From Ferrimonas lipolytica (lineage in GTDB: Bacteria; Pseudomonadota; Gammaproteobacteria; Enterobacterales; Shewanellaceae), in contig NZ_CP051180.1 of the NCBI RefSeq assembly GCF_012295575.1, positions 496,001 to 560,000 of the forward strand: DNA of 64,000 nucleotides, given 5' to 3'. Numbering within the stretch: the first letter of the stretch is position 1; each line of letters opens with the position of its first letter. This document shows, piece by piece, positions 2,256 through 64,000 of the stretch. The translations under genes and the position numbers were made by a program. The notes below the pieces were generated by a model. The model searched no databases. It was not told the origin of the DNA and saw only the letters and a program-made list of their open reading frames with translations.

Positions 2256-2331
2256 GGGCGATTAGCTCAGTTGGGAGAGCACCTGCCTTACAAGCAGGGG
2301 GTCACTGGTTCAAGCCCAGTATCGCCCACCA
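2256..2331 (+). tRNA. tRNA-Val(TAC) copy 9
   Basis: Same 76-nt sequence as Val copy 1. Confidence 0.97.
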
Positions 2332-2367
2332 CTTTCTTTAGTTCGGAATTAAAACGAACTGTCCGGG

Positions 2368-2443
2368 GTCCCCTTCGTCTAGAGGCCTAGGACACCGCCC
2401 TTTCACGGCGGTAACAGGGGTTCGAATCCCCTAGGGGACGCCA
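2368..2443 (+). tRNA. tRNA-Glu(TTC) copy 10
   Basis: Same 76-nt sequence as Glu copy 1. It is the last gene of the array, followed by about 100 bp and a terminator. Confidence 0.97.
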
Positions 2444-2550
2444 CTTATTTTTAGTGATTTATCCATTATGGATGAGTACTTAGCTTCGTTACCATTGTTG
2501 TTAATAGGTAACGTGCTGGCTTGATACTATGTTATCGACGCTGACACCTA

Positions 2551-2575
2551 AACCACCTTTACTGGTGGTTTTTTT
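2551..2575 (+). terminator. Terminator of the tRNA array
   Basis: Stem AACCACC/GGTGGTT with a 6-nt loop, followed directly by five or more T. It lies about 107 bp after the last tRNA-Glu. Confidence 0.85.
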
Positions 2576-2773
2576 GTGTCTGCTATTTGGCATTGTTTCG
2601 TCGTGGTCGTCTGATACGGCATGGCAATATTTAGTAATATTGCAACTGTTTCGCCAGCTTTAATGCGGTGGAATAATCAAGGCGCTAGTGGTTTTGCTCC
2701 TGTTATATTGGCATGTCCCAGCTGTGCTTTAGATTGAGAAACAGCAGTTAATTGGCCAATAAGCAAAAACAAA

Positions 2774-2983
2774 GGCTGTGTACCCACTAAGTGTTGTTCT
2801 TCTGTCGCATAGGAGCAGTTCAGCGAAGCATTTTTGACAGCGACCTAAGGCAGGCGAGATTCCAAAGGGGGGCGAAGCACCGCTTTGGTTGCCGTCACCA
2901 TCGCGACATACCCCTTAAGAGTACTGCAATCGTTAGAGCCGAAGGATTGATATAAACCTCAACACTTAAACTGTAACACAGCC
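2774..2983 (+). repeat. GGCTGTGT terminal-inverted-repeat element, copy A (internally deleted, 210 bp)
   Basis: It begins GGCTGTGTACCCACTAAG and ends TAACACAGCC. The interior matches the element at 29635 (for example GGAGCAGTTCAGCGAAGC and GCGACCTAAGGCA), with about 75 bp missing near the left end. A 9-bp direct duplication AAAAACAAA flanks it (2765-2773 and 2984-2992). The right-hand copy of the duplication is the T-tract of the tesA terminator read on the minus strand. No credible gene lies inside. Confidence 0.88.
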
Positions 2984-3013
2984 AAAAACAAAGCCACCGT
3001 TATGGTGGCTTTG
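2984..3013 (-). terminator. Terminator of tesA
   Basis: Stem CAAAGCCACC/GGTGGCTTTG with a 5-nt loop. Read on the minus strand it is followed by TTTGTTTTT, which runs straight into repeat copy A. Confidence 0.88.
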
Positions 3014-3033
3014 TTGTATCAGCAATACCAAGA

Positions 3034-3630
3034 CTAACCTGCAACTTGCAGGAACCACTGCTCCATAAAGTCGGCGATCAGCGGTTGAGCTTGTTTATTT
3101 GGGTGAATACCGTCCGCTTGCATCAAATTTGGCTTTGGAGCTATTGGCTCCATGAAAAATGGCACTAGGGTTAATTGATGCTGTTCATTAAGAGTTTGAA
3201 ACACTTGATCGAACTGATCGGTGTAACGGCGACCGTAGTTCGGTGGTAGCATCACTTGTGACAGTAATATTTGGCTGCCGCTGGCGTGTGCCAATTGGAT
3301 TATTTGATCGAGGTTACGCTGTGTGATGGTTGGCGGAAAGCCTCGTAATCCATCGTTACCGCCCAATTCGATAAAGATCCACTGTGGTTGGTGCCGCGTA
3401 AGCAGGCTCGGTAGACGACGTAATGCCCCTCCGCTGGTTTCCCCACTAACGGAGGCATTGATAAGTTCATAGCTATCATTGCGTTGGCGGAGAATATTAA
3501 CCCAGCCATCGGCTTCGTCCATGCCATAGCTGGCACTCAAGCTGTCACCCAAAATAAGAATTGAAACTGGCTTTGCCCAAGCGTTGCCAACGGTTAACGC
3601 TAATAACAGTAGTAATAAGGATTTTCGCAC
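3034..3630 (-). CDS. tesA: TesA-type periplasmic esterase (thioesterase I / lysophospholipase L1)
   Basis: 198-residue SGNH hydrolase that cleaves acyl thioesters and lysophospholipids in the periplasm in known TesA proteins. Residues 1-19 form a signal peptide (RK, then six Leu, cleavage after AWA). The GDSL block is at 28-31 with Ser30 as nucleophile. The block with GGND follows, and the C-terminal DGIHPN carries the Asp/His pair. I chose GTG at 3630 because an AGAGG ribosome site lies 5 bases upstream; the upstream in-frame extension adds an acidic stretch before the signal peptide. It is divergent from ybbA, with start codons 1 bp apart, the same arrangement as in E. coli. Confidence 0.93.
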   Translation of the reverse strand: MRKSLLLLLLALTVGNAWAKPVSILILGDSLSASYGMDEADGWVNILRQRNDSYELINASVSGETSGGALRRLPSLLTRHQPQWIFIELGGNDGLRGFPPTITQRNLDQIIQLAHASGSQILLSQVMLPPNYGRRYTDQFDQVFQTLNEQHQLTLVPFFMEPIAPKPNLMQADGIHPNKQAQPLIADFMEQWFLQVAG

Positions 3631-55555: not shown

Positions 55556-56548
<993 letters not shown>

Positions 56549-56579
56549 GCACTGGCAGCTCGATTTTAGCTACTTAGGG

Positions 56580-57953
56580 TTAGCACTCAACAATGTTAAC
56601 CGCGAGGCCGCCTTTGGCGGTCTCTTTGTATTTACTGCGCATGTCCATGCCGGTATCCCACATGGTCTTAATGACTTTATCAAGGGACACCTTATGCATG
56701 CCATCGCCACGCATGGCCAAACGGGAAGCATTGATCGCCTTTACTGCGCCCATGGCATTGCGCTCGATACAAGGTACCTGTACCAAGCCGCCAACCGGAT
56801 CGCAGGTAAGCCCGAGATTGTGCTCCATGCCGATCTCTGCGGCGTTTTCAACATTGGCTACAGTGCCACCGATGATCTCGGTTAGTGCGCCTGCTGCCAT
56901 TGAACAGGCCACGCCGACTTCGCCTTGGCAACCTACCTCAGCCCCAGAGATGGAGGCGTTTTTCTTGTAGAGAATGCCAATCGCTGCCGCGGTTAATAGA
57001 TAGCGGCAGGCGATATCCTTATTAACCGGTTGGATAAAGCGATCGTAATAACACAATACCGCAGGGATGATCCCCGCGGCGCCATTGGTTGGTGCGGTAA
57101 CGACCCGGCCACCGGCGGCATTCTCTTCGTTGACTGCCATGGCAAACAGGTTGACCCAGTCCATGGCATTGAGCGGGTCTTGATTGGTGCTCCCTTCAGC
57201 TTGCAAACGACGGTGCAATGCTGGTGCTCGACGGCGCAATTTGAGGCCACCAGATAGTATGCCTTCGATGCGACAGCCTCTATCGACACAGGCAATCATG
57301 GTTTGCCAGATGTGCCACAGTTTATCCTGCACTTCATTTTCGCTGCGTAATACCTTCTCGTTAGCCATCATCAACGAGGCGATAGATAAGCCATGCTCAG
57401 TGCACAGCTCAACCAACTCGTGGGCACTGCTGAAGGAGTAGGGCTGGGTTTGGGCGACTTGGTTGATCTCATCTTTACGCTCTATCTCAACTTCATCTAG
57501 TACAAAGCCGCCGCCAATGGAGAAGTAGGTGCGTTGATAGATGATGCTGTCATCTTTAAGCGCTTTAATGGTCATGGCGTTGGCGTGCTGTGGCAGGCTT
57601 TTGCGACGATGATAGGTGATGCCGTTGGAACGGGTAAATTTAACTTGATGCTCACCGTTCAGGCTTAACTGTTGTGATTCAGCCACTGCCTTTAACTTTG
57701 TTTCTACTGAATCCGGATCGCATCGCTCCGGTTGCTCACCTAGGAGGCCAAGCACAACCGCTTTACCACTGCCGTGGCCTTTGCCGGTTTGACCGAGTGA
57801 ACCAAACAGTTCCACTTGCAGTTCGTTAGTTTGAGTGAGTTGATTGTTGTCGCTGAGATCGCTGAGGAAACGATTTGCGGCACGCATTGGGCCCACGGTA
57901 TGGGAGCTGGATGGGCCGATACCAATGCTGAACATATCGAACACGCTGATCAT
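56580..57953 (-). CDS. sdaA: L-serine ammonia-lyase (L-serine deaminase), iron-sulfur type
   Basis: 457-residue enzyme converting L-serine to pyruvate and ammonia with a [4Fe-4S] cluster. N-terminal [21 protein letters not shown] (core [13 protein letters not shown]) and the C-terminal cluster Cys residues in [32 protein letters not shown] (core [12 protein letters not shown]). ATG at 57953 has AAGGATATTTT upstream; the longer frame adds 13 non-conserved residues. It is a single-chain (SdaA/SdaB/TdcG) type. It is convergent with cysB. Confidence 0.95.
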
Positions 57954-58192
57954 AAAATATCCTTGTACTGAGAGACGTTCTATCCGGAACATGGAGCGAT
58001 GTTACCTCAGTCGCCGATGTGCCCCAACCAGCAATCAGCCTAACCAGCACAGGTTAGACTTGATTCTGCCACCGGACAGCGACACTCTATTGAGGTAGGG
58101 TCACTACTGTGGCCAAAGCGTAGTGACGATCACTACGGTTCGCTTCACCACAACCATACTAGAAGCAGTCGATTGAATATGGAGAGTAAGGG

Positions 58193-58732
58193 ATGATTCT
58201 TTATTTGCACGGGTTTGATGCCACCAGTCCAGGTAATCACCAAAAGGTGCTGCAGTTAAAGATGATTGATGACGACGTCAGGATGATCAACTACTCGACT
58301 GTACACCCCCGTCATGACATGCAGCATCTGCTCAATGAAGTAACCAAACAGCTCAACTATAGCGATGATAAGAACCCAATTATTGTAGGTGTTGGTCTTG
58401 GCGGTTATTGGGCTGAGCGCATCGGCTTTTTATGTAAGCTCCGTTCAGTGCAGTTCAACCCTAACCTGTGGCCACACACCAATATGGTCGGCAAAATTGA
58501 CCGTCCAGAAGAGTACGAAGACATTGCTGATAAGTGCGCTAAGGACTTCCGCAAGCTGAACCAATCACGCTCGTTGGTTATCTTGTCCAGAAACGATGAG
58601 GTGCTTGATATCACCGAAATCGCCGCCACGCTTGCGCCGTTCTATGACGTCGTTTGGGATGAGCAGCAACCACACAAATTCCCTAAGATCAGTGCTCACT
58701 TGTCACGCATAGACGCTTTTCGAAACGCCTAA
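58193..58732 (+). CDS. ycfP: YcfP family alpha/beta-hydrolase-like protein (UPF0227)
   Basis: 179 residues; N-terminal [22 protein letters not shown] (core [15 protein letters not shown]), [27 protein letters not shown] and the C-terminal [13 protein letters not shown]. The usual nucleophile serine of the GxSxG elbow is Gly here (GVGLGG), as in E. coli YcfP, so a hydrolase activity is doubtful. Role unknown. ATG has GGAGAGTAAGG upstream. Confidence 0.9.
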
Positions 58733-58856
58733 CGCGAGATAACCATGCGACCAAGGAAGGTTGCAAATCGCAGTAACAATTACCAATGATGCAATATGAT
58801 GTTTGTATCGTGTTGATTTTATTGTTACTTTGCGAAAAATTTCATCAAGGAAGATC

Positions 58857-59366
58857 ATGGAACGGTTATTTGAATCACTACTGTGGAAAAGTCGACTTAC
58901 GTTGTTGTTGGCCGTTGTTAGCTGTGTAATTGCTGGCATTGCGCTGATCGTGTTGGGAATCTCAGAGGTGTGGCATCTACTGCATATGTTGTGGCAGTAC
59001 TTACTTGATGCCAATGCCGGTGTAAGTCGCGATCAGCTGGTACTGGTGGTGATCGAAGTGCTTGATACCTTCTTACTGTCCTCGGTGCTGTTCATCTTTT
59101 CGTTTGGCTTATACGAGCTGTTTGTTAGCCGGATTGAACAAGCACAAGACCATGGCTCTAAGGCGTTTGCCATCAACAGCATCGACCAACTTAAAGCTAA
59201 GCTTGGCAAAGTGGTGCTGATGCTGTTGGTTATTAAGGTGTTTGCCTTATTGGTGGAGATCCGCCCCAACAGTATGTTGGAGCTACTCTACATGGCGCTG
59301 ATCGTCTTGTTGATTGCGTTAAGCTTATGGCTCAGTAACGGTGGGCCGAAATCCGAGCCAAAGTAA
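58857..59366 (+). CDS. YqhA family membrane protein (UPF0114)
   Basis: 169 residues; three to four TM helices (about 14-35, 57-78 combined with 70-90, 110-132, 136-155). Pattern IEVLDTFLLSSVLFIFSFGLYELFVSRI (core DTFLLSSVLFIFSFGLYELF) is the UPF0114 signature. ATG at 58857 has AAGGAAGATC upstream; the frame is open 18 codons before it. Function unknown. Its stop touches the end of dusC, which is convergent. Confidence 0.85.
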   Translation: MERLFESLLWKSRLTLLLAVVSCVIAGIALIVLGISEVWHLLHMLWQYLLDANAGVSRDQLVLVVIEVLDTFLLSSVLFIFSFGLYELFVSRIEQAQDHGSKAFAINSIDQLKAKLGKVVLMLLVIKVFALLVEIRPNSMLELLYMALIVLLIALSLWLSNGGPKSEPK

Positions 59367-60320
59367 TCAAGCTTGGGTTTTGATTAGATGCGTTGCCCCT
59401 AGCGCGGTAACAATCTCGTTAGGGCTACGTAAGCGTCGGATCACTTCAAAGTCTGCCTGCGCCTCAGGATATTGACGGATCAGATAGCGAAACCACTGCT
59501 TGATGCGGTTGGGATAGTAGATCCCCTTATCGCCGTAGAGCTCGAAACCGGAGTAGTCGATAAGTACTTGTTTCATCTCTTGCCAGCTGAGCGGGGCAGC
59601 GTCGGTTTTAATGCACTCCGCCAGATTGGGTAGAGCTAAGGCGCCACGACCGATCATCAGATCTTTGCTGCCAGTAATTTCACGACAACGCTTGGCATCT
59701 GCTGCCGACCAGATCTCGCCGTTAGCAATTACTGGAATAGACAGGGCATTGTTGATGGCGCCGATCGACTCCCAATCAATCTTATCGGCTTTGTAGCCGT
59801 CATCCTTAGTACGCCCGTGTACACATAATTCGGCAGCGCCGGCATCCTGTGCCGCGAAGGCGTTATCCATCATTAAGTCTTTGTCGTTAAACCCTAAGCG
59901 GATCTTAGCGGTTACCGGTTTATCGCTCGGTACTGCATCGCGAACCGCTTTGATGATGTCATGGAGCGCTTGTGGCTCTTTGAGCAGCACAGCCCCCCCT
60001 TTCGATTGGTTAACCTGCTTTGCCGGGCAACCAAAGTTGAGATCAACCCCGTCTGAGCCAAGCTCAACCGCACGGGCTGCATTGAGTGCCATCCAATCTG
60101 GGTTCTGTCCCAATAATTGTACCCGCACCGGTACACCCGCTGGGGTTTTACCGCCATTGTTCAGTTCCGGGCACAAACGTCGGTAGGTACGCTCTGGTAG
60201 TAGCTGGTCCACAACGCGAACGAACTCTGAGACGCACATGTCTACCCCGAACTGTCGGGTCAACATATCACGCATTAAAGCGTCCATTACGCCTTCCATT
60301 GGGGCCAGAATTACTCTCAT
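59367..60320 (-). CDS. dusC: tRNA-dihydrouridine(16) synthase
   Basis: 317-residue FMN-dependent Dus enzyme that reduces uridine in tRNA (U16 for DusC in E. coli). Marks: ILAPMEGVMDALMRDMLTR (core APMEGVMDALMRD), catalytic Cys in DLNFGCPAKQVNQSKGG (core NFGCPAKQVN), and GDKGIYYPNRIKQWFRYL (core NRIKQWFRYL) typical of DusC. ATG at 60320. It is convergent with the YqhA-like gene. Confidence 0.92.
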   Translation of the reverse strand: MRVILAPMEGVMDALMRDMLTRQFGVDMCVSEFVRVVDQLLPERTYRRLCPELNNGGKTPAGVPVRVQLLGQNPDWMALNAARAVELGSDGVDLNFGCPAKQVNQSKGGAVLLKEPQALHDIIKAVRDAVPSDKPVTAKIRLGFNDKDLMMDNAFAAQDAGAAELCVHGRTKDDGYKADKIDWESIGAINNALSIPVIANGEIWSAADAKRCREITGSKDLMIGRGALALPNLAECIKTDAAPLSWQEMKQVLIDYSGFELYGDKGIYYPNRIKQWFRYLIRQYPEAQADFEVIRRLRSPNEIVTALGATHLIKTQA

Positions 60321-60501
60321 AGGGTTTGGGATCTCATGCTGAAGCGAAAATAACGGTGAAAATTTTAGCGGCGAAGTTTACCAGCAAACCACAGAAACGC
60401 CACTAACGAAGGACTGAGTGATCTTCAAAAAACCAACTAAAGTAAGAAATGTTGAAATAATGTGAAATAAGATCGTAATAGCTAAGGTCTTCTTGATTGA
60501 G

Positions 60502-60520
60502 CCAGCGCATAGGCCGCTGG
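60502..60520 (+). promoter_or_regulatory. Hairpin in the leader of the HvfA-like precursor gene
   Basis: CCAGCG/CGCTGG with a 7-nt loop, about 35 bp before the ATG. It could stabilise the leader or regulate translation; there is no T-tract. Confidence 0.35.
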
Positions 60521-60554
60521 ATAACACAGGTTTAGACCAAAAGGATAAAATATC

Positions 60555-60977
60555 ATGACGAATGTAAAGAAAACCTCTGTTGCTGCTGCCTTGGGTGCGC
60601 TGGTTGTTGGTGGCACTTTAGTTACGGCTCAAGCAAACCCATTCTCTGCGACTGAACTGGCTCAAGGCTATGAAATTTCGACCCTTACTGGTGACAAGGG
60701 GGCAGAAGGCAAATGCGGCGAAGGCAAGTGTGGTGGTGAAAATAAAGGCAAAGAGGGTAAGTGCGGCGAAGGTAAATGTGGCGGCGAGAAAGCCAAAGAG
60801 GGCAAGTGCGGCGAAGGTAAATGTGGTGGCGAGAAAGCCAAAGAGGGCAAGTGCGGCGAAGGTAAGTGTGGCGGCGAGAAAGCCAAAGAGGGTAAGTGTG
60901 GCGAAGGTAAGTGCGGCGGCGATAAGAAAGCCAAAGAGGGTAAGTGTGGTGAAGGCAAGTGCGGTGGTGACAAGTAA
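60555..60977 (+). CDS. hvfA: HvfA/bufferin-type RiPP precursor with 12 EGKCG motifs
   Basis: 140 residues: signal peptide 1-27 (hydrophobic VAAALGALVVGGTLV, cleavage after TAQA), a short leader (28-50), then six blocks each containing EGKCGEGKCGG from residue 51 to the end. There are 12 EGKCG motifs and 12 Cys, no other Cys. In known HvfA and bufferin peptides an MNIO enzyme converts such cysteines to oxazolone/thioamide or thiooxazole groups that bind copper in the periplasm. The DNA repeats with a ~45-bp period. ATG has AAGGATAAAATATC upstream. MNIO and partner genes follow. The antisense frame is a composition artefact. Confidence 0.93.
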   Translation: MTNVKKTSVAAALGALVVGGTLVTAQANPFSATELAQGYEISTLTGDKGAEGKCGEGKCGGENKGKEGKCGEGKCGGEKAKEGKCGEGKCGGEKAKEGKCGEGKCGGEKAKEGKCGEGKCGGDKKAKEGKCGEGKCGGDK

Positions 60978-61074
60978 CCACCTCGATAACTCTCTTAATG
61001 GTAAGCCGATTGACTGAACTGCGTTTGAGTGAAACGGTTTAACTATTAGGTTAAATTATCGTTAATAAGCCAAC

Positions 61075-61097
61075 AAGGCTGGCCTCGGTCAGCCTTT
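61075..61097 (+). terminator. Hairpin between precursor and MNIO genes (possible partial terminator)
   Basis: Stem AAGGCTG/CAGCCTT with an 8-nt loop, weak T-tract (TTTGCT). It lies in the 153-bp gap and could keep the maturase level below the precursor level. Confidence 0.5.
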
Positions 61098-61129
61098 GCT
61101 ATATTTAGGGTAACGCAAGGAGTAGCAAC

Positions 61130-61975
61130 ATGACCCAACTGAGTGGTGCGGGTGTAGGATTGCGGCGTGAAATGGTACAGCAGCTTAGCCAAGGGGCAAT
61201 ACCGGACCCAATTCATTTTATGGAAGTGGCGCCGGAAAACTGGTTGCGGGTAAACCCTAAGTTAGCGCGTCAGTTTCGAGCGCTAACAGAGCGGGTACCA
61301 TTTGTATGTCACGGTTTGTCACTCTCCATTGGTGCGCCAGCGCCACTGGACGAATCGTTTGTTCGTCAGCTGAGAATCTTCCTCGACCAGCACAATATTG
61401 AGATCTATTCCGAACATCTGTCCTATTGCTCTGGCAACGCTCATCTATACGATCTGATGCCGATTCCATTCACCGAGGCTGCGGTTAATCATGTTGCTGA
61501 GCGGGTCAGTCGCGTTCAGGATATTCTCGGTCGTCGACTGGTGTTGGAGAATGTCTCCTATTACGCCGAACCCGGTGCCGAAATGAGCGAGTTGGAGTTT
61601 GTTAATGCGGTGCTTGAACGTGCCGACTGTGAGCTCTTACTAGACGTAAACAACATCTATGTAAACAGCGTTAACCATCGTTACGACCCCTATCAATTTT
61701 TGCAAGGGTTGCCATCTGAGCGGGTGCGCTACATGCATATCGCAGGGCATTACAACGAGGCCGACGATCTCATTGTGGATACCCACGGAGCGGACGTGAT
61801 TGAACCGGTGTGGGATCTATTGCAACAAAGCTATCGTTTGCATGGCATTCACCCAACCTTGCTAGAGCGAGATTTCAATCTGCCTGAGATGGATCAGTTA
61901 ATAACTGAGGTTAGCCGCATTAACGACATCCAAGCAAAAGTGCTTAACTGTGCCACGGAGGTGCAAACAGCATGA
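61130..61975 (+). CDS. hvfB: MNIO-type RiPP maturase (DUF692), HvfB-like
   Basis: 281-residue TIM-barrel multinuclear non-heme iron oxidase. Marks: PIHFMEVAPENWL, YSEHLSYCSGNAHLYDLMPIPF (core SEHLSYCSG), LVLENVSYYAEPG (core LENVSYY), LLLDVNNIYVNSVNH and YMHIAGHYN, with His, Glu, Asp and Asn metal ligands in these blocks. It would modify the EGKCG cysteines of the adjacent precursor. AAGGAGTAGCAAC lies ahead of the ATG. The partner gene overlaps by 4 bp. Confidence 0.95.
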   Translation: MTQLSGAGVGLRREMVQQLSQGAIPDPIHFMEVAPENWLRVNPKLARQFRALTERVPFVCHGLSLSIGAPAPLDESFVRQLRIFLDQHNIEIYSEHLSYCSGNAHLYDLMPIPFTEAAVNHVAERVSRVQDILGRRLVLENVSYYAEPGAEMSELEFVNAVLERADCELLLDVNNIYVNSVNHRYDPYQFLQGLPSERVRYMHIAGHYNEADDLIVDTHGADVIEPVWDLLQQSYRLHGIHPTLLERDFNLPEMDQLITEVSRINDIQAKVLNCATEVQTA

Positions 61976-62703
61976 GCGATTTTAGTCAAATTCAGCAGCA
62001 GTTTATGGATCACATCCGTGCCCCAGAACCTGGCTCACCACCGTTGCAGTTGGAAGCACGACGGATGGACATATACCGCGAGCTGATGTTTAACAACGTG
62101 TGTGGCTTTATCAACAGTGGTTATCCAGTGTTGAAATCGATTACTGACGAGTTGGTTTGGCAACAGCGGCTACGAACGTTTTTTGCTGAATACGACTGCC
62201 ATTCCCCCCTGTTTGTCGACATTTCGGCGGCTTTTCTTCACTTTTTGCAGCAGCAACCGGATCTGCTCCTGTGGGAGGTGGAACTGGCACACTATGAGCA
62301 ATTAGAGTTGAAAATAGACATCTTAGCGGAAGTTACCGACCAAACCGCGATAACTGAAGCTGAGCAGTTGCTTAGTGCTAGCTTATGCCTCTATCGAGCC
62401 GCCGAGATAGGTAAGTATGGCTACCCAGTACATCAGATAGGCGTTGACAACCCACAGGTTGAAGCGCAGCCAACCTACCTGTTGGTCTATCGCAATGCTG
62501 AAGATGATGTCGCCTTTATGGAACTCAACCCAATGACGGCGCAGCTGGTGGGTTACGTTCAGCAGCATCCCGGCTGTAGTGCCCAGCAAGTGGCCGAAGC
62601 GATGATTACCGCCATGCCAGAGCTAGAACCTGAGGTTGTTGCCCAAGGGGCCGGACAGCTGATGTTACAAATGGCTGGGCAAGGAATAATTCGACAGCAG
62701 TAA
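61972..62703 (+). CDS. hvfC: RiPP maturation partner protein, HvfC-like (DUF2063)
   Basis: 243 residues: N-terminal DUF2063 helical domain (about 1-95, QQQFMDHIRAPEPGS and IYRELMFNNVCGFINSGYPVL, core NNVCGFINSGYPVL) and a C-terminal domain (about 150-243) with YLLVYRNAEDDVAFMELNP (core VYRNAEDDVAFMEL) and a winged-helix-like end. Such proteins bind the precursor and the MNIO enzyme as one complex. ATGA overlap with the MNIO gene. No DoxX-type hvfD is seen downstream. Confidence 0.92.
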   Translation: MSDFSQIQQQFMDHIRAPEPGSPPLQLEARRMDIYRELMFNNVCGFINSGYPVLKSITDELVWQQRLRTFFAEYDCHSPLFVDISAAFLHFLQQQPDLLLWEVELAHYEQLELKIDILAEVTDQTAITEAEQLLSASLCLYRAAEIGKYGYPVHQIGVDNPQVEAQPTYLLVYRNAEDDVAFMELNPMTAQLVGYVQQHPGCSAQQVAEAMITAMPELEPEVVAQGAGQLMLQMAGQGIIRQQ

Positions 62704-62829
62704 ACTTCTTTTTTATTGGTTTGGGCTAATAAGTTGATAAATCAGCGTAAAACCCTACGTTTTATCGGTGTTTGTGTGACCAAGATCAACTTATACTGCC
62801 GCCAACAAAATACATGGGAGTTTGTCGTC

Positions 62830-62949
62830 ATGGAACACACGGAATTTAAAGAACCTTATAATATTCTTCACTTTTTAGGCTTTTTGTTAGTGTTGGCTAT
62901 TCCTACTTTACCGGCATCATTAACCTGGATAAGTATCCTTAGTCGTTAA
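62830..62949 (+). CDS. Small single-span membrane protein (39 aa)
   Basis: MEHTEFKEPYNILHFLGFLLV begins it (core MEHTEFKEPYN): one TM segment at about 13-36, ending TWISILSR. GGGAG lies 8 bases before the ATG. It lies 126 bp after the HvfC-like gene on the same strand, so it may belong to the operon, but this is uncertain. No known family recognised. Confidence 0.55.
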   Translation: MEHTEFKEPYNILHFLGFLLVLAIPTLPASLTWISILSR

Positions 62950-63076
62950 CGGATAGCCTTGTATAGCAACGGTTTTAGTGAAATTGACGCAATTTATTGC
63001 CGTAGAGCCCGTTGCGCAACATTGTAGTTGCATCTCGCAATTAAGGTGCTTAAGCTTAGCCAGCAATACGGTTGAT

Positions 63077-63113
63077 AAGTCCAGATTGTAAATTTACAAG
63101 CTGGACTTTTTTA
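63077..63113 (+). terminator. Terminator immediately upstream of apt
   Basis: Stem AAGTCCAG/CTGGACTT enclosing a second palindrome TTGTAAATTTACAA, followed by T6. It ends 36 bp before the apt ATG. It may end the MNIO operon transcript or attenuate apt. Confidence 0.8.
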
Positions 63114-63148
63114 TTGTGGCTAGGCCACCTGTAGAAAAAGACGACATC

Positions 63149-63694
63149 ATGAATCAAGCTTCATTGGCTGTGCTGAAAGACAGCATCAAAACCATCCCTG
63201 GCTACCCTAAGCCGGGCATCATGTTCCGCGACGTAACTTCTTTGTTGGAAGACGGCAAAGCATTTCGTCTGAGCATTGAGCTGCTGGCACAGCAGTTCAA
63301 AGATCACGGGTTCACCAAGATTGTTGGTACCGAAGCTCGCGGCTTTCTGTTTGGCGCTCCGTTAGCGTACGAATTGGGTCTGGGTTTTGTGCCGGTTCGT
63401 AAGCCAGGCAAGTTGCCTCGCCCAACTAATGCTGAATCCTACGAGTTGGAATACGGTACCGATACGTTAGAGATCCACAAAGACGCTATCGTTCCTGGCG
63501 ACAAAGTGTTGCTGGTCGATGATCTTCTTGCTACCGGTGGCACCATCGAAGCAACCGCTAAACTGGTTCGTGATTTAGGCGGTATCGTAACCGACGCAGC
63601 CTTTGTGATTAACTTGCCAGATCTGGGCGGCGCTAAGCGCTTGGATGCAATTGATCTGAACGTATTGTCACTGTGTGAGTTTGAAGGCGACTGA
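63149..63694 (+). CDS. apt: Adenine phosphoribosyltransferase
   Basis: 181 residues (E. coli 183); makes AMP from adenine and PRPP. Marks: [21 protein letters not shown] (core [12 protein letters not shown]), [22 protein letters not shown] and the PRPP loop [16 protein letters not shown] at 63149 ([11 protein letters not shown]) is the family-like start; the 11-codon extension has no support. dnaX follows, as in enterics. Confidence 0.95.
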
Positions 63695-63713
63695 TCGCGA
63701 TTCAACCTCATTC

Positions 63714-63742
63714 TAAAGCCGAGCACATGCTCGGCTTTTTGC
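63714..63742 (+). terminator. Terminator of apt
   Basis: Stem AAAGCCGAGCA/TGCTCGGCTTT with a 2-nt loop and T-rich tail. Confidence 0.88.
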
Positions 63743-63800
63743 TTTCTGAAATGTGATACATTGATCCCAAAGTGTCCCCTTTAATCGTTATTGGATAATC

Positions 63801-64000
63801 ATGTCTTATCAGGTTCTGGCGCGAAAATGGCGGCCAGCCACATTTGATCAAGTCGTCGGCCAAGAGCATGTCCTCAAAGCGCTGACCCACGCATTGCAAC
63901 ATAACCGCTTGCATCATGCCTATCTGTTCACCGGTACCCGTGGTGTTGGTAAAACCTCGATAGCGCGGTTGCTGGCCAAAGGTTTGAACTGCGAACAGGG
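63801..64000 (+). CDS. dnaX: DNA polymerase III subunits tau/gamma, N-terminal part
   Basis: The visible 66 codons read [20 protein letters not shown] and continue to the Walker A region [18 protein letters not shown] (core GTRGVGKTS). This is the start of the clamp-loader ATPase. The gene is cut by the window end. ATG at 63801 follows TTATTGGATAATC; the GGA is a weak ribosome site. Confidence 0.93.

Follow-up and report, generated by a model that had tools for sequence, protein, structure and literature searches.

What is made, and for which need, by an operon whose first gene repeats the short motif EGKCG twelve times? The question is raised by a locus of Ferrimonas lipolytica lying in a stretch of 64,000 nucleotides (contig NZ_CP051180.1, positions 496,001 to 560,000; the host genome is a single contig of 4.13 Mb), the whole of which is called the window hereafter. 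The preliminary description, based on the DNA letters, considered this locus as an operon for a ribosomally synthesized and post-translationally modified peptide (RiPP), in which a Sec-type precursor with 12-fold EGKCG is contiguous with a DUF692 enzyme of the multinuclear non-heme iron-dependent oxidative (MNIO) class and with a DUF2063 partner, and this was confirmed, with the Sec signal as a probable one (Table 1). We regard it as quite probable that the operon is of the HvfA/HvfB/HvfC type, that its product is a copper-binding peptide with 5-thiooxazoles, that a hairpin biases expression towards an excess of the precursor, and that transcription from a promoter of the extracytoplasmic function (ECF) type places the peptide in the response of the cell envelope to oxidative or metal stress. 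The gene content and the family membership are plain, and both the promoter element and the hairpin are conserved.

The precursor passes the cut-off of the HvfA-family domain NF050137 (110.2 bits against 19.5) but not that of the HvfA equivalog NF050188 (76.1 against 95), and by the latter model it is a member of the family and no HvfA orthologue; its Pfam search gave no match. The enzyme scored 440.5 bits with the HvfB family NF003818 (cut-off 360) and 349.3 bits with PF05114, and aligned with PDB 3bww at E = 1.3e-74, the stretches HGLSLS, HLS, EN.SYY, LDVNNIYVN, HIAGH, VDTHG and LLERDFN being common to both. For the partner the HvfC family NF050145 gave 257.2 bits (cut-off 142), PF09836 and PF22106 were matched as well, and PDB 3dee was found at E = 3.2e-10. 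Judged by these sequences, the operon is a member of the HvfA/EGKCG (oxazolin, captophorin) RiPP family. The precursor and enzyme genes are separated by 152 nt, while those of the enzyme and partner overlap by 4 nt. Among 80 named loci the closest enzyme by E-value is that of F. balearica (74% identity), and another close one reaches 76%.

EGKCG motifs of the precursor start at residues 51, 56, 67, 72, 82, 87, 97, 102, 112, 117, 128 and 133, forming six EGKCGEGKCG pairs with periods of 16, 15, 15, 15 and 16 residues. The protein has 12 cysteines and 12 motifs with no cysteine outside them, and each cysteine therefore sits in a motif. The six near-identical blocks previously noticed are indeed near-identical as units of DNA, Tandem Repeats Finder reporting a 45-nt unit in 5.4 copies with 89% matches at 60714-60961. 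The N-terminus (MTNVKK, a hydrophobic segment, then AQA/NPF) looks by eye like a Sec signal, which fits an alignment of 22 precursors (alignment A1). Just past the signal, F30, G38 and Y39 are invariant across these 22 sequences, and the residues around them are a candidate docking stretch for the enzyme.

The number of repeats had been considered unusually high and the variant undescribed, and neither opinion is supported by the literature or by the comparison with relatives that had been proposed at the same time. The comparison included 95 distinct precursors, the window's own among them, found by a search that required at least three motifs and counted any xxKCG; two more (L083 and L126, masked or cut) were excluded. 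They have from 4 to 16 motifs, and the most frequent number is just 12 (28 of 95; exactly 12 EGKCG were also found in 28 of 95), with repeat periods of 17 and 16 residues prevailing among relatives. In the published Buf_EGKCG/oxazolin (captophorin) family, to which the precursor belongs, about 2,000 proteins have 31-506 residues, the longest one contains 58 cysteines, and the first type is built of units of 17 residues, variable in number and each containing EGKCG twice (PMC12452194). The repeat number of the window precursor is ordinary for this family, its variability has already been described, and as a novelty it has to be rejected. The assumption that repeat number varies by recombination is correct as to variation, and near-identity of the units is consistent with recombination. 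A separate observation concerns genome G115, whose operon (L270, 1155-1352) has the element described below, an HvfB gene and a precursor of 65 residues with only two EGKCG motifs, which is probably a result of repeat contraction.

An upstream precursor with at least three xxKCG motifs accompanies the enzyme in 64 of the 80 loci retrieved via the enzyme, some of the other 16 being at contig ends, and each of the 14 Ferrimonas genomes has the trio together. In the family of the host the HvfA-family domain was matched in 146 of 152 genomes. Two of the remaining six (G115 and G127) have an HvfB gene and the element, and four are left without the system (no EGKCG and no HvfB), the HvfB search having covered 14 plus 15 of the 152 genomes.

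Upstream of the precursor gene the pattern TGAAA-N17/18-GGTC attracts attention (Table 1). Within the window alone it is unremarkable, as a match appeared in 20 of 100 shuffled windows. Among relatives 69 of 99 distinct precursor genes have it in the 220 nt before them, where 0.14 were expected from mononucleotide shuffles. In 67 of these cases it lies 60-130 nt upstream with the spacer almost fixed (N18 in 61, N17 in 6), the other two being at 172 and 203 nt. Alignment of 57 elements gave the consensus TGAAATaaA...GGTCTNNT, then CAAGCCAGC, with an AT-rich stretch preceding the half-sites. All 14 Ferrimonas genomes have the element before the EGKCG operon. In several loci of the Shewanella family without the strict element, the half-site read by eye at comparable spacing is TGCAA, TGTAA or a -35 that diverges more (L025, L075, L089, L110, L274, L277), and a Paraferrimonas locus (L044) was scored negative probably due to a start codon misplaced by the script. 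Scanning 60300-63200 with the sigma-70 consensus revealed no promoter. The element is also unlike the promoters known for Shewanella oneidensis, where RpoE uses GAACTT and RpoE2/ChrR TGATCC...CGTATT (PMC4336711). A published link of the hairpin, promoter or sigma factor to such operons was not found, which is a weak negative, as most of the subscription literature was outside the search.

In the 14 Ferrimonas genomes the element occurs 123 times against 45 for the reversed pattern. For the genus, and not for the own genome, this conserved -35/-10-like pair at near-fixed spacing is common to other genes. It stands before msrP in 10 of the 14 genomes and before the gene of a secreted peroxiredoxin-like protein in 9 of 11 by script, or 10 of 11 if genome G013 is counted, whose locus (L233) was script-negative with its flank ended at the contig end, the match being found in the genome-wide listing. 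The peroxiredoxin-like protein reached no NCBIfam cut-off (best 43.5 bits against 120). Since the element stands also before these two genes, the peptide seems to be part of an envelope oxidative/metal-stress regulon. Twenty of the 123 matches were read (12 of genome G012, with that of the operon itself excluded, and eight chosen ones). Other genes following them were those of chemotaxis receptors, TlpA-like and TonB-receptor-like proteins and further ones (all by eye) and of an RclC-like protein that is under the cut-off of its model; some matches fell inside open reading frames (ORFs). In genome G002 the element also stands before a pair named by eye as cutA-dsbD-like (L210), and three further Ferrimonas genomes contain its TGAAACTCTAATGGGG form. 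In other bacteria cutA and dsbD are associated with tolerance of copper.

Grouping of such operons with repair genes has precedents. The sigmaF factor of Caulobacter, with the promoter GTAACC-N16-CGAA, controls msrP along with two DUF2282-DUF692-DUF2063 operons (PMC3511200). Under HOCl, RpoE2 of Haemophilus activates msrAB and a homologous DoxX/COG3220/DUF2063 cluster (PMC7907618), and msrAB of Neisseria is under the control of sigmaE together with the cluster NMB2140-2145 (PMC2893595). By analogy with these three systems a similar grouping in Ferrimonas is credible.

Two potential RNA structures complete the regulatory region. The probable stem-loop near the 5' end starts where the RNA 5' end would be expected from the element; the 40-nt piece containing it folds with -10.0 kcal/mol (z-score -1.6), and over 72 loci, including that of the window, 66 are at or below -4 kcal/mol with a mean z-score of -1.6, 37 being under -1.5. 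The second structure, a terminator-like hairpin, lies between the precursor and enzyme genes. Of 101 distinct gaps at this place 81 have at least 40 nt. A terminator-like hairpin is present in 70 of these, against 2.8 expected, and a strong stem in 76, against 5.7; neither was found in the 20 shorter gaps, none of which belongs to loci titled Ferrimonas, Shewanella or Pseudoalteromonas. For two gaps longer than 400 nt (L092 and L106) the first 400 nt were scanned, and both were positive. In Ferrimonas the terminator-like form is present in 11 of 14 gaps and the stem in all 14. The plain reading of this arrangement would be a terminator of the precursor gene with read-through, and because such a hairpin separates the two genes, synthesis of the precursor probably exceeds that of the enzymes.

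We infer the chemistry, copper binding, export, stoichiometry and stress signal of the operon as follows. Transcription would start at the ECF-type promoter, which in the genus is common to genes of periplasmic oxidation repair, and partial read-through of its own terminator-like hairpin would raise the precursor beyond the level of the enzymes. HvfC would attach to the precursor at its signal/leader part, and in the cytoplasm HvfB together with HvfC would convert as many as 12 cysteines of Lys-Cys-Gly by oxidation into 5-thiooxazoles with the loss of 4 H each, after which the Sec pathway would export a mature peptide of 113 residues, which in the periplasm would hold Cu(I) ions, several per molecule. 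The average mass calculated for this predicted mature peptide is 11147.4 Da, or 11099.0 Da if all 12 thiooxazoles are formed; related peptides absorb near 302 nm. Exactly this modification of repeat cysteines, with 4 H lost from each, is known for oxazolin, where HvfB with HvfC prefers the full-length precursor, so that the Sec signal acts like a leader (PMC13419390). 5-Thiooxazoles were reported for oxazolin, fontiphorin and gonophorin, and tentatively for bulbicupramide, together with copper binding (PMC13097082, PMC13419390, PMC12538549); a fontiphorin fusion protein took up as many as four copper ions with its seven sites (PMC13097082). Some 6-7 copper ions would accordingly be in keeping with the 12 sites of the window peptide.

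A narrower scheme can be put forward only tentatively. In Ferrimonas, Shewanella and their neighbours the EGKCG peptide may be the core target of an undescribed ECF circuit recognizing TGAAAT-N17-GGTCTNNT, perhaps with a PRK12517-type sigma factor and a DUF3379 anti-sigma factor, which in Ferrimonas is coupled to MsrPQ and the secreted peroxiredoxin-like protein, while the 5' stem-loop and the intercistronic terminator bias the output strongly towards the precursor. The own copy of this sigma factor (NF009170, C1:2231817-2232371) is followed by a DUF3379-family protein. The gene was detected in 145 of 152 family genomes and is missing from the four that have neither EGKCG nor HvfB and from G031, G073 and G148, whose operons are all without the element. 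For the comparison of sigma factor with element Fisher values are 1.6e-6, or 9e-4 without two genomes of a fifth genus; kinship is ignored in them, and the precursors of G031, G073 and G148 look alike, so these genomes may be one clade.

Several observations weigh against the interpretation favoured here. In the own genome msrP is without the element, the peroxiredoxin-like gene has its TGCAA variant at the right spacing, and exact matches number 7 against 17 in the reversed-pattern control; the regulon therefore holds for the genus and is weaker for this strain. The T-tract of the hairpin at this locus is weak, folding energy favours another stem of that gap, longer but imperfect, similar hairpins are present in 4 of 7 other co-directional gaps of the window (with genes approximated by ORFs), and terminator-like sites are not in excess in the scan of 60300-63200 (2 against 3.1 in shuffles). 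The hairpin may just end the transcript, with the enzyme then having a separate promoter. ECF operons are often autoregulated. Autoregulation by the element was, however, not found for the candidate sigma factors: it is absent upstream of the PRK12517-type gene in all 30 best-scoring family loci and in the own genome, and, among 13 own sigma loci scanned, none of the five ECF-like genes has it, a loose TGAA match being registered upstream of one non-ECF gene. Finally, MmrA-C proteins of Microbulbifer were undetected even with copper added (PMC12538549), so that copper induction is not general.

The lack of the element before sigma genes would fit the assumption that TGAAA-N-GGTC is a binding site of an activator or repressor and not an ECF -35/-10 pair, and by eye the spacer in Ferrimonas does contain an imperfect inverted repeat AGATCC/GGGTCT. 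This repeat, however, is not conserved in the Shewanella sequences compared, and the rigid half-sites, their near-fixed spacing, the AT-rich stretch before them and the stem-loop beginning at the expected RNA 5' end all argue for a promoter, which makes a regulator site somewhat unlikely. GGTCT also resembles the -10 element of Escherichia coli sigmaE-type promoters. Neisseria has a comparable CGTCTAA (PMC2893595).

Another possibility concerns the function, namely that the peptide is mainly a redox or hypochlorite scavenger of the periplasm (a thiol/thiooxazole sink), copper being secondary. Association of the element with genes for MsrP and the peroxiredoxin-like protein in Ferrimonas, HOCl-mediated induction of the homologous cluster of H. 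influenzae via RpoE2 (PMC7907618) and the behaviour of the Microbulbifer proteins (PMC12538549) are in line with this. On the other hand, modified relatives bind Cu(I) (PMC13097082), bufferins improve growth under copper stress (PMC12452194), and msrP of E. coli is copper-induced (PMC9302797), so that grouping with msrP also fits copper; a mainly scavenging role is thus unlikely in our opinion. A secreted chalkophore acquiring copper like methanobactin would share with the window system an MNIO enzyme and copper-binding heterocycles. It appears highly improbable in view of the Sec-type signal, of the ORFs in 56000-64000, among which neither exporter nor receptor was recognized by eye, and of the available family data, which indicate copper excess and oxidative stress and no starvation (PMC13097082). 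The enzyme also stayed far under the cut-off of the methanobactin maturase model MbnB (TIGR04159, 52.6 bits against 325). Bare cysteine repeats could bind Cu(I) as well, and modification is supposed here by analogy, so one may imagine an unmodified metallothionein-like peptide with unrelated enzymes beside it. That 64 of 80 loci have the precursor ahead of the enzyme and all 14 Ferrimonas genomes the trio, and that homologous trios modify the cysteines (PMC13097082, PMC13419390), makes it extremely improbable. The modified copper-binding peptide expressed from an ECF-type promoter remains our preferred interpretation.

Table 1. Coordinates of the operon and its regulatory features in the window.
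Feature	Position	Strand	Basis or remark
TGAAAT-N17-GGTCT, probable ECF sigma -35/-10	60463-60490	+	starts 92 nt upstream of precursor ATG; conservation
5'-end stem-loop, probable (GCCAGCG...CGCTGG)	60501-60520	+	folding of 40-nt piece
hvfA-type precursor, 140 residues, 12 EGKCG motifs	60555-60977	+	NF050137 110.2 bits
Probable Sec signal peptide, residues 1-27 (AQA/NPF)	60555-60635	+	by eye
Post-signal segment NPFxxxELxxGY, residues 28-39, candidate enzyme-docking stretch	60636-60671	+	conservation in 22-precursor alignment
Core: six EGKCGEGKCG pairs, 12 candidate Cys	60705-60965	+	motif count, tandem array
Terminator-like hairpin AAGGCTGGCC-TCGG-TCAGCCTT, precursor-enzyme gap	61075-61096	+	33 nt before enzyme ATG
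HvfB-type MNIO maturase (DUF692), 281 residues	61130-61975	+	NF003818, PF05114, PDB 3bww
HvfC-type partner (DUF2063), 243 residues	61972-62703	+	NF050145, PF09836, PF22106, PDB 3dee

The operon is flanked by a dusC-like gene upstream on the opposite strand and by apt- and dnaX-like genes downstream (named by eye from translations). No protease could be recognized by eye beside it among the ORFs of 56000-64000, nor did any RNA family reach its gathering threshold there. The DoxX (HvfX) gene, which is frequent but not universal in the family, is absent from the cluster, the genome's single PF07681 match lying at C1:853386, about 295 kb off. Between hvfC and the apt-like gene a membrane peptide of 39 residues, FKEPYNILHFLGFLLVLAIPTLPASLTW, is encoded at 62830-62949 (+); similar peptides of the form FK(D/E)PFN...PTLPA were seen at the equivalent site in 23 of 40 loci checked, including all 15 of the Shewanella loci examined and 6 of 14 Ferrimonas genomes. 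The same genome contains a second, separate operon (L007, G000:C1:2073468-2077241; ORFs 1157-1456, 1456-2304 and 2301-3074) with a DUF2282 bufferin (Buf1) precursor, MNIO and DUF2063 genes, whose scanned strand gave no match to the TGAA/GGTC element.

The peptide itself is one ordinary member more of a large, recently described copper-binding family. ECF sigma factors that control clusters of this kind along with methionine-sulfoxide repair are already on record from three groups of bacteria. The regulatory setting is weightier than the peptide: if true, a further promoter class in Ferrimonas and its relatives would argue for the repair of oxidized envelope proteins and the trapping of copper being one response, and it narrows the question to a few genes and a single sequence element.

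How does the window operon compare with systems already described? The label of bufferin given to it in advance is justified in so far as it belongs to MNIO RiPPs of a copper-binding family, but not in the strict sense (Buf1 DUF2282 or Buf2), which was rejected: the enzyme missed the BufB cut-off (NF050167, 267.1 bits against 310), the precursor has no Pfam match, and no Buf2 model was searched by name. Buf1 (DUF2282) operons and the Caulobacter sigmaF regulon share with it the MNIO-DUF2063 cluster and, probably, an ECF promoter associated with msrP, while the precursor there is DUF2282 and the promoter GTAACC-N16-CGAA, as opposed to TGAAAT-N17-GGTCT here, with the own msrP lacking the element (PMC3511200). 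Much closer is the first type of Buf_EGKCG/oxazolin (Antoine et al. 2025, PMC12452194), mostly found in Pseudomonadota, which has a signal peptide of the kind probable here and the same EGKCG pairs, adjoining MNIO and DUF2063 genes and variable repeats. The period of the window precursor is 15-16 residues in place of the published 17, and its cluster is without DoxX gene. For a mid-size Pseudoalteromonas protein a beta-helix was reported (PMC12452194), while AlphaFold2 with 22 sequences gave for the window precursor a mean predicted local distance difference test (pLDDT) score of 42.4, no confident fold and no beta-helix, a low-confidence result that neither supports nor excludes the published structure. 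With oxazolin HvfABC(X) of Haemophilus influenzae (PMC13419390) the operon has in common the HvfB and HvfC families over their cut-offs and the AEGKCGEGKCG pairs; it differs in 12 modifiable cysteines instead of 6, in the absence of HvfX and in a precursor that stays under the HvfA equivalog cut-off. Fontiphorin/captophorins and bulbicupramide MmrA-C resemble it in EGKCG repeats and in an MNIO with a PME1/DUF2063 partner, by which these repeats are converted to copper-binding 5-thiooxazoles, tentatively so for bulbicupramide; FonA has seven sites and MmrA five to eight, as compared to 12 in the window precursor (PMC13097082, PMC12538549).

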